Assembly: GCA_035937135.1 (NCBI GenBank)
Contig: DASYVL010000138.1
Location: 1 to 41,724 of the forward strand
Length of the DNA: 41,724 bases
Source of the DNA: Terriglobales bacterium
GTDB taxonomy: Bacteria > Acidobacteriota > Terriglobia > Terriglobales > Acidobacteriaceae
Direction: 5' to 3'
A program made the translations under genes and the position numbers. Shown here piece by piece: positions 18,754 through 21,525 of this stretch (positions are counted from its first letter, which is position 1; the number at the start of each line of letters is the position of its first letter). The notes beneath the pieces are model-generated. The model ran no database searches, was not told the origin of the DNA, and worked only from the letters and a program-made list of their open reading frames with translations.

Positions 18754-19515
18754 ATGCGTCCGCTCGTCCGCCTGTTGCTTTGTCTTTTTACATTCGCTGC
18801 CTTCAGCGCGCGCCCGTTGCGCGCCCACGACAGTGAGCCCATCAACACCGAATTCGCTGCTCCGTTCACCTATAAAGCCGGCAACCTGCAATTTGGCCTG
18901 CGGTACGCCCACAACCTGCGTTCTTACGATGTAGCAAGCTTCGAATTCGAGTACGGCGTCTGGCAGCGCATGCAGTTCTCCATCAGCGCGCCGCTTACCC
19001 GCACCGACGCTTCGGGTAAGACCTACGTGCGGCCCGGCAACGTCGAGATCGCCTACCGCTATCTGCTGGCGGGCGGAAACGAGCGCCGCTTCGCCCTCTC
19101 CATCAACCCCGAGGTCACGCTGCCGGTGGGCGACAAGCGGGTGGCGGAGCGCGCCTTCGCGGTGGGCGGCGCGCTCCACCTCGACCTCCATCCGAGCGAC
19201 CGCCTCTGGACCCATCTGAACCTTGGCTACGAAACGCCCATCGCCCGCTTTGAGGAGAAAGAAAAAGTCTTCTTCTACCGGGCCGCCGCCATGTACCACG
19301 CCAGCGAGCGCTTCCAGCCGGTGCTGGAACTGGTGGGCGAGCACGGTTTCCACGACGGCTCCACCCGGCTGGCGGTGGTTCCGGAGCTGATCTTTTCTCC
19401 CAGCCACCGCTGGGAGATCAAGGCGGGGATGCCGCTGGGGGCGACCCGTGCCACCCCTGACGTGGGCTTCCAGTTTCAGTTAACATGGAAGTTCGGTCGG
19501 GAGGGGCGGCAGTGA
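18754..19515 (+). CDS. Outer-membrane beta-barrel protein (MetA-pathway transporter-like)
   Basis: The product has 253 residues; GGGAGG lies 6 nt before the ATG. The signal peptide ends near residue 24 (LRAHDSEP). The mature chain alternates polar and hydrophobic residues in beta-barrel style (NLQFGLRYAHNLRSYDVASFEFEYGVWQRMQFSISAPLTR, RFALSINPEVTLPVGD, LWTHLNLGYETPIARF, RWEIKAGMPLGAT). It ends in an amphipathic strand with aromatic residues (VGFQFQLTWKFG). It resembles the 'phenol MetA pathway' porin-like family, but the substrate is unknown. It lies between the His/Cys-rich gene and a DsbA-like gene, probably in one transcript that ends at the 20212 terminator. Confidence 0.75.
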   Translation: MRPLVRLLLCLFTFAAFSARPLRAHDSEPINTEFAAPFTYKAGNLQFGLRYAHNLRSYDVASFEFEYGVWQRMQFSISAPLTRTDASGKTYVRPGNVEIAYRYLLAGGNERRFALSINPEVTLPVGDKRVAERAFAVGGALHLDLHPSDRLWTHLNLGYETPIARFEEKEKVFFYRAAAMYHASERFQPVLELVGEHGFHDGSTRLAVVPELIFSPSHRWEIKAGMPLGATRATPDVGFQFQLTWKFGREGRQ

Positions 19516-19547
19516 CCCGTCTCCCGGCCGATCAGCGAGGTCCAGCC

Positions 19548-20195
19548 ATGATTTCCCACAAATCGAGTTTTCTGTTGCTTCTATTCCTGCTGGGGACGGC
19601 GCTCACGGCGCAGGTGGCGAGCCAGCGCGCGCTGCGTCCGCCGCCCGGCGCTTCGGTCGCGCTGGTGGTCTTCGAAGACCTGGAGTGCCCGGACTGCAAG
19701 CGCGCCGCGCCGCTGTTGGAAGAGGCCGCCCGCGCCTACAAGATCCCCCTGGTGCGCCACGACTTCCCCCTGCCCAAGCACAACTGGTCGTTCGACGCCG
19801 CCGTGCTGGCGCGCTTTTTCGACACCAAGTCCAAGAAGACCGGGGACGAATTCCGCGCCTACATCTTCCAGAACCAGGAGCAGATCACGCGCGAGACCCT
19901 GCGGCCGTACGCCGAGCGGTTCGCCTCCGACCGCAAGGTGGACCTGCCCTTCGCCGTCGATCCCCGGGGCGAGCTGGCCAAGAAGGTGAAGGCGGACTAC
20001 GCGCTGGGCCAGGCCATCAACATCCAGCACACCCCGACCATCTACGTGGTGAGCAACAAGGAGAGCGGCACGCCGTTCGTGGAAGTGGTGGACCGCACCA
20101 ACCTCTACGCCATGATCGACAAGATGAAGCGCGAGGCGGTCCCGGTCTCGGCCAGCGCTACCAAGAGCACCAAGAAGTCGGCCACGCCCCAGTAA
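19548..20195 (+). CDS. Secreted DsbA-like thioredoxin-fold protein
   Basis: The product has 215 residues. ATG at 19548 is chosen over an in-frame ATG at 19485 because a signal peptide starts there and AGCGAGG lies 8 nt upstream. The signal is residues 1-22. The thioredoxin fold follows, with active site C47-P-D-C50 (VFEDLECPDCKRAAP) and the cis-Pro loop (IQHTPTIYVV). It matches the Thioredoxin_4/DsbA-like family that reduces, oxidises or isomerises periplasmic disulfides. The Lys/Ser/Thr-rich C-terminus is disordered. It is the last gene before a strong terminator. Confidence 0.88.
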   Translation: MISHKSSFLLLLFLLGTALTAQVASQRALRPPPGASVALVVFEDLECPDCKRAAPLLEEAARAYKIPLVRHDFPLPKHNWSFDAAVLARFFDTKSKKTGDEFRAYIFQNQEQITRETLRPYAERFASDRKVDLPFAVDPRGELAKKVKADYALGQAINIQHTPTIYVVSNKESGTPFVEVVDRTNLYAMIDKMKREAVPVSASATKSTKKSATPQ

Positions 20196-20211
20196 TCGTT
20201 CCACGAAAAGC

Positions 20212-20245
20212 AAAACCCCGCCGAGTGGCGGGGTTTTGTTGTTTC
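20212..20245 (+). terminator. Strong Rho-independent terminator
   Basis: A perfect 11-bp stem AAAACCCCGCC / GGCGGGGTTTT with a GAGT loop is followed by GTTGTTTCT. It ends the DsbA-like gene. The A-tract on the 5' arm makes it bidirectional, so it can also end the convergent peroxiredoxin gene (stop at 20256). Confidence 0.93.
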
Positions 20246-20255
20246 TGGCTGGCTG

Positions 20256-20741
20256 CTACAGTTTGCGCAGGACTGCGAGACAGTCCTCATTGGGCGGTTG
20301 CTCGCCCAGCTCGTACAGCTTGCTGAAGGCGATCTTGCCGGCTTTGTTCACGATGAAGACAGCGCGCTGGTTGATGCCGGGGATGGGGTCGCCCTCGCGG
20401 AAGACGCCGTATTTCTTCGCCGTCTCGCCGTGGGGATAGAAGTCGCTGCACAACGGGTAGCGCAGCGGACCGATATCATGCTTCTGCCAGGCGATGTGGC
20501 TGAAGACCGAATCCACGCTCACGCCCACGACCTGGGCGTTGAAGCCGGCGAACTTGTCGAGGTCCGTGTTGTACGCCGGCATTTGCGCGCTTCAGGTGGG
20601 GGTCCAGTTGAGAGCGTAGAAGGCCACCACCACGTGCTTTTTGCCGCGGAAATCGGAGAGCTTGAACTTGTGCTTCTCCGTCCCGGTCACGGCCGGCAAC
20701 TCGAAATCCGGAGCCACCTGGCCGACTGCGAGGATCGCCAT
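20256..20741 (-). CDS. Peroxiredoxin with in-frame TGA at the peroxidatic cysteine (selenoprotein candidate)
   Basis: Reading through one TGA (20592-20594, codon 50) gives a complete 161-residue AhpC/TSA-family peroxiredoxin. The N-terminal half is [20 protein letters not shown] through [22 protein letters not shown] follows, then [72 protein letters not shown] and a normal C-terminus. In homologues this position is the active-site Cys of the TPxC motif, so the natural reading is selenocysteine (TPTU). Both halves are in frame with no other lesion. A GGGGGGAAG site precedes the ATG. The only Cys residues are in PLCSDF and EDCLAV, so resolution may use thioredoxin or a 1-Cys mechanism. It reduces peroxides in the cytosol and is divergent from a Dps-like ferritin. 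A point mutation or assembly error is the alternative. Confidence 0.85.
20544..20594 (-). promoter_or_regulatory. Candidate bacterial SECIS hairpin after the TGA codon
   Basis: In the mRNA, 11 nt after UGA a perfect 7-bp stem GCCGGCG / CGCCGGC forms (arms 20574-20580 and 20544-20550). Inside it, AAC/GUU pairs next to a 3-nt bulge, and a small CG/CG-closed loop GACCU begins about 27 nt after the UGA. Bacterial SECIS elements lie within coding sequence just downstream of UGA, with a G early in the apical loop, so distance and shape fit. Folding was done by eye. Confidence 0.6.
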
Positions 20742-20855
20742 CTTTCTCTTCCCCCCTCAAAAAATTGCCGCCTCAGCAGTCCGTACCGCCGAGGCGCGTG
20801 GCATCAGTGTAGCACTCGGAACCTGCGCTTCCAGCGCGCCGCCCAGAGGCTCATT

Positions 20856-20958: not shown

Positions 20959-21525
20959 ATGGGAAAGGTAGCACGGGAAGTTGTGGTCAAGGCCGGCGTC
21001 AACGTGGACGAGCTGCTGAAGAAGCTGGTGCGCGCGGCCTCGGCTGAATTCACGACGTATTACTACTACACCATCCTGCGGGTGAACGCGATCGGCTTCG
21101 ATGGCGAAGGATTGAAGGAGATCATCGAGGACGCGCGCATCGAAGACCGCAACCACTTCGAGGCGCTGACCCCGCGCATCTACGAGCTGGGCGGCAAGCT
21201 GACGCGCGACATCAAGGACTTCTGCGCCGAGGCGGCCTGTCCGGATGCCTACCTGGCCAAGAATCCCAAGGACATGAAGCAGATGCTGAAGATCCTGGTG
21301 GGCGCCGAGCGCTGCGCCATCCGGGTGTACACCGAGATCTGCCAGATGACCCAGGGCAAGGACCACCGCACCTACGATCTGGCGCTGGCCATCCTGCACG
21401 AAGAGATCGAGCACGAGGCGTGGTTCAGCGAGTACCTGGGCGAAGGGCCGAGCGGACACTTCCGCCGCGGCACGCCGGGCGAGTCTCCCTACACCTCAAG
21501 GTTCCTGACGGTGCCCAAGAAGTAG
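20959..21525 (+). CDS. Dps-like ferritin (DPSL/thioferritin type)
   Basis: The product has 188 residues with a GAAGGAG site. It is a four-helix ferritin-like protein with iron ligands placed as in the bacterioferritin-type site: E30 (AEFTTYYYY), E62-x3-H66 (IEDRNHF), E117 (GAERC), E149-x2-H152 ([10 protein letters not shown]). Cys residues at 89, 94, 119 and 128 recall the archaeal/bacterial DPSL 'thioferritins', which carry a Cys pair near the di-iron site. Such proteins use peroxide to oxidise and store iron, and protect DNA. The divergent peroxiredoxin, with its candidate Sec residue, and the nearby Rieske protein support a peroxide-defence role. The exact disulfide partners are inference. 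Confidence 0.85.

Follow-up and report, generated by a model that had tools for sequence, protein, structure and literature searches.

A clade of predicted selenocysteine peroxiredoxins in soil Acidobacteria

A 41,724-nucleotide stretch of DNA from a Terriglobales bacterium (the window) carries on its minus strand a 161-codon peroxiredoxin frame of the AhpC/TSA family, running from 20741 to 20256 and interrupted by one in-frame TGA. We conclude with high confidence that the gene encodes a selenoprotein peroxiredoxin, in which SelB, together with a downstream hairpin, has the UGA of codon 50 translated as selenocysteine (Sec). An earlier note on this DNA had proposed a Sec-peroxiredoxin, and that interpretation is supported by alignment to Cys homologues, by the TGA found in relatives, by TGC and TGT versions of the same codon, by the SelA, SelB, and SelD genes, and by a covarying hairpin. 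The peroxiredoxin represents a new clade within the known Sec-peroxiredoxin kind, a widespread branch in soil Acidobacteria. It places a predicted selenium peroxidase in a single, largely uncultured family of soil Acidobacteria, a protein for which ordinary annotation would give a 108-residue fragment without the active site. Natural Sec and Cys versions coexist in the clade, with three Cys forms nested among the Sec forms, and because both versions are present, the benefit of Sec in a peroxiredoxin would be measurable on close orthologues.

The frame begins with an ATG at 20741-20739 and ends with a TAG at 20258-20256 (minus strand). The earlier note had described a single TGA at codon 50 of an otherwise open peroxiredoxin frame; its coordinates are all exact and the context that it gave around the TGA agrees with our reading, although it left the strand (minus) unstated. 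It had also seen homology on both sides of the TGA. The 161-residue readthrough product matches Pfam AhpC-TSA (PF00578) over residues 6-139 (E 4.6e-33, 114 bits vs 26), a match that spans both sides of the TGA, and the product also matches PF08534 (8.3e-19). The ribosome site that the note had assigned to the start was recovered as well, as was the truncation that it had expected from gene finding: ORF listing of the locus yields the 108-residue 3' part alone (20256-20582). The features of the gene are as follows.

20256..20741, minus strand: predicted Sec-peroxiredoxin gene, AhpC/TSA family (frame reading, Pfam, AlphaFold2 model)
20746..20757, minus strand: Shine-Dalgarno-like AGGGGGGAAGAG just upstream of the ATG (sequence)
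20613..20615, minus strand: codon 43, Ala where the PxxxTxxC/U motif usually has Pro (alignments)
20592..20594, minus strand: TGA codon 50, read as selenocysteine at the peroxidatic position, TPTU (alignments, orthologue codons)
20364..20366, minus strand: Arg126 codon; this catalytic arginine is invariant in peroxiredoxins (alignments, counts)

Our sample for orthologues comprised 298 genomes from the order to which the window belongs, and close relatives were taken from a scan of GTDB representative genomes. An orthologue with exactly one in-frame stop, a TGA, is present in 52 of the 298 genomes, within the same bacterial family, and the TGA lies at the identical codon in all 27 TGA genes that were read (the window's included). 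Six close relatives (L002-L007, MAGs labelled Terriglobia, Terriglobales or Acidobacteria; 51-64% identity) have the TGA at the same codon in 6/6 cases, and the more distant L008-L016 (40-46%) have Cys at the codon aligned to it. Two checks suggested in the earlier note, alignment to Cys homologues and a search for the same TGA in related genomes, thus gave a TGA in the column of the peroxidatic Cys and its recurrence in dozens of genomes. Seven further genomes of the order have a best match (over 240 bits) that is free of stops; three of the seven were read, and codon 50 in these Cys orthologues is TGC (G009) or TGT (G102, G191). The combination of Cys and frame damage in relatives, which the note had held to count against its reading, was not encountered.

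In a tree of 40 sequences, the three Cys rows (L088, L106, and L108) fall inside the Sec clade. Judged from this tree, the pattern reads most simply as Sec-to-Cys changes, the number of which is approximate because the deepest forks are modestly supported. SelA is retained in all three Cys-orthologue genomes. Table 1 of a 2006 survey (PMC1794560) lists no Sec-to-Cys change for peroxiredoxins.

Downstream of the TGA, folding and comparison of orthologues define one further element of the gene.

20544..20580, minus strand: SECIS-like hairpin (folding, covariation in 29 TGA orthologues)

The hairpin begins 11 nt 3' of the TGA. Its lower stem pairs 20580-20574 with 20550-20544, its apical pairs are 20566/20558 and 20565/20559, and the apical loop comprises 20564-20560. 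The 65 nt from the TGA onward align without gaps in 29 orthologues, and we scored a hairpin of seven pairs (columns 18-21/45-48, 24/42, and 29-30/36-37). These positions were paired in 92.1% of cells compared to 86.2% with partners shuffled, and 13 double-changed cells were observed versus 3.7 in the shuffles (0/500); when the hairpin was slid to other positions, at most 49.3% of cells were paired. Since the shuffle control leaves shared ancestry in, we relied also on the slide control and on the occurrence of several pair types. Both columns of the apical pair 30/36 are third codon positions; this pair occurs as G-C in 13 sequences, C-G in 7, A-U in 3, and G-U in 1, and 2 sequences have A-U in place of G-C at pair 21/45. 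The third codon positions of the stem hardly vary, with CCG in 26/26 Pro codons (columns 16-18) and GCC in 27/29 Ala codons (columns 46-48). RNAalifold by itself returned the lower stem and pair 24/42 and no other pairs. A G occupies position 1 of the apical loop in the window, and some relatives lack a G there. The mean folding energy is -10.7 kcal/mol for the Cys orthologues (three sequences only) versus -18.1 kcal/mol for the TGA orthologues. The stem is weaker in two of the three Cys orthologues; L088 (TGC) still folds at -17.0 kcal/mol, a hairpin that might have been kept as a recent Sec-to-Cys conversion would leave it. Changes of the apical pair at third codon positions are what a bacterial SECIS element would be expected to show.

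In the proposed mechanism, the hairpin just 3' of the UGA would direct recoding by SelB, which, carrying Sec-tRNA-Sec, would read the UGA at codon 50 as selenocysteine. The resulting selenol would be the peroxidatic group, reducing H2O2 or organic hydroperoxides and being converted to a selenenic acid as the peroxide is reduced, and an external reductant would then return the selenenic acid to the selenol. For the window protein itself, we infer both the peroxidase reaction and the reductant.

The predicted peroxiredoxin fold comes from an AlphaFold2 model built from 34 sequences (pLDDT 97.6), which matches many solved peroxiredoxins with a TM of about 0.9; it was used in place of a poor seven-sequence model (pLDDT 63). 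Thr47 and Arg126 are invariant across the clade (alignments, counts), and the catalytic set of the window protein keeps Thr47, position 50, and Arg126, with Pro43 replaced by Ala. Position 43 of the motif is Val in L002 and L093 and Pro in most relatives. The sole position that is Sec or Cys in every member is 50: Cys98 is found in 22/29 Sec proteins, and several Sec proteins have no other Cys at all. As the clade conserves no further Cys, we regard the protein as probably a 1-Sec enzyme; a mechanism with an external reductant, either a small thiol or a second protein, is our best guess.

The gene is flanked by the following elements.

19485..20195, plus strand: Thioredoxin_4/DsbA-like protein, convergent neighbour (gene neighbourhood)
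20211..20238, no strand assigned: terminator-like hairpin in the gap that separates the peroxiredoxin from the convergent Thioredoxin_4 gene (sequence)
20959..21525, plus strand: ferritin-like protein, divergent neighbour (gene neighbourhood)

A Thioredoxin_4/DsbA-like gene lies beside the orthologue in nine other clade genomes; because this gene is convergent, a functional link with the peroxiredoxin is only a suggestion. Another terminator-like hairpin, with a T run, closely precedes the ribosome site on the strand of the gene (20769-20796, minus); no counterpart was seen in orthologues, and we rejected it as a part of the mechanism.

The window's own genome, a 2.2 Mb draft in 192 contigs, encodes intact SelA (447 bits), SelB (379 bits), and SelD (371 bits), and its SelD has an in-frame TGA of its own, at the place where SelD usually carries Sec (AAGUASK). 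Absence of all Sec machinery, which the earlier note had said would speak against its reading, is thus contradicted by these three genes; of the components that it had proposed to look for, selA, selB, and selD are present, and tRNA-Sec is represented by a 5' half only. Across the order, SelA is found in 136/298 genomes and in 51/52 of those with a TGA peroxiredoxin (Fisher p about 3e-19, uncorrected for shared ancestry). The sole TGA-peroxiredoxin genome without SelA (G152) has a tRNA-Sec recognised by ARAGORN (L123). In the window, TGA is also the stop codon of a DUF885 and an Nramp gene, both full-length; the code is therefore not globally changed.

The tRNA-Sec of the window's genome does not adjoin selA, selB, or selD. 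It consists of the 5' 43-44 nt on contig C145 (L075/L079; 359-402, minus strand), of which 43 nt, extending as far as the 3' side of the anticodon stem, match the relative G003 exactly. Beyond this half lies unrelated DNA of lower GC content (0.54 vs 0.65), and the contig ends after about 360 nt. Most of the relatives examined have an intact tRNA-Sec. The site is the orthologous tRNA-Sec locus, because its PhzF-like gene neighbourhood is common to G003, G009, and G013; for G003 and G013, 235-320 nt separate the tRNA-Sec from the end of its contig. A search of the window's assembly for the family 3'-half pattern with up to 3 mismatches did not find the 3' half, and a covariance model built from 25 relatives gave nothing better than the 5' half in this genome. 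A tRNA-Sec pattern containing GGTTCGA proved too strict, because the T arm is GCGTTCGA in many family members. The best RF01852 hit in the genome (49.4 bits, above the cut-off) was rejected as a tRNA-Sec, being identified as tRNA-Ser(TGA) by ARAGORN. The DNA past the break had no match among phage or plasmid records. On another contig of this genome (C180, L053), two tRNA-Thr genes that share the anticodon TGT were observed at 1328-1403 and 2611-2687, about 1.2 kb apart. Transfer RNA genes are common integration sites, and for this reason the half gene likely results either from an assembly break or from a recently inserted element. Because the assembly holds the 5' half alone, Sec decoding in the window's strain is a property that we infer.

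The broken tRNA-Sec matters for a reading in which the family is truly one of selenoproteins, and this strain has recently lost Sec decoding, so that the TGA now stops translation after 49 residues. The unrelated lower-GC DNA at the orthologous locus and the missing 3' half are what such a loss would leave. However, SelA, SelB, and SelD (the last with its own TGA) are intact, the peroxiredoxin frame and the hairpin are without decay, and the tRNA-Sec half sits close to the end of its contig (about 400 nt away) in a draft of 192 contigs. Moreover, tRNA-Sec was also not detected in the drafts G001, G007, and G251, which have both a TGA peroxiredoxin and SelA, pointing to assembly loss at this locus. 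We consider recent loss unlikely on this evidence. A non-canonical tRNA-Sec in this lineage, split or interrupted by an intron or mobile element, with SelA, SelB, SelD, and the Sec-peroxiredoxin still functional, seems to us very unlikely.

The remaining readings dispense with Sec at codon 50. A fresh nonsense mutation would look just like a single in-frame stop, and a misread TGC or TGT is the corresponding sequencing error, but the same TGA recurs with intact frames in dozens of independent assemblies, tracks with SelA, and is followed by a covarying hairpin; the orthologues refute this reading, to which we give next to no credence. Decoding of TGA as some other amino acid, by general reassignment or suppression, is comparably implausible: nothing was found in its favour, TGA serves as the normal stop of the complete DUF885 and Nramp genes of the window, and the alternative residue at codon 50 in relatives is always Cys. 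A Sec-peroxiredoxin thus remains our preferred interpretation.

The selenoproteins known from bacteria already include a family of Sec-peroxiredoxins (PMC13188914; PMC5029168). The first such enzyme was that of Eubacterium acidaminophilum (cited in PMC13188914; PMC5029168), the bacterial family has been given as 91 proteins from 78 organisms (PMC5029168), and its motif as PxxxTxxU (PMC13188914). The 2006 survey (PMC1794560) gives four selenoproteins in three families in its entry for Acidobacteria, and our literature search found no description of the window's Sec-peroxiredoxin clade in this phylum. Other Sec forms differ from the window protein in score or motif: with the thiol peroxidase Prx-SUH (NF045827), also of the peroxiredoxin superfamily, the window protein reaches 48.6 bits where the cut-off is 298, and a peroxiredoxin-like family, likewise of this superfamily, has the motif UxxS (PMC13188914) where the window protein has USAQ. 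Three Chloroflexi (Anaerolineae) loci (L023, L024, L025) contain peroxiredoxin-like genes with an in-frame TGA in GF[MI]-TGA-PYC, a UxxC type.

The window protein resembles PrxU (NF040737, TxxU) in its AhpC/TSA fold and in the UGA-coded Sec at the peroxidatic T-P-x-U. Unlike PrxU, its clade has no conserved second Cys, and the window sequence has Ala for the motif Pro. With 73.7 bits, it scores far under the NF040737 cut-off of 270, and it therefore belongs not to the PrxU subfamily but to another clade. A fold search placed typical 2-Cys Prx chains first, whereas a search with the clade profile placed AhpE, the 1-Cys peroxiredoxin of Mycobacterium tuberculosis (Rv2238c), nearest among solved sequences (E 2.4e-41). 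The likeness to the AhpE type extends to a similar length (153-164 residues); AhpE has Cys at work, whereas the window's clade mostly has Sec.
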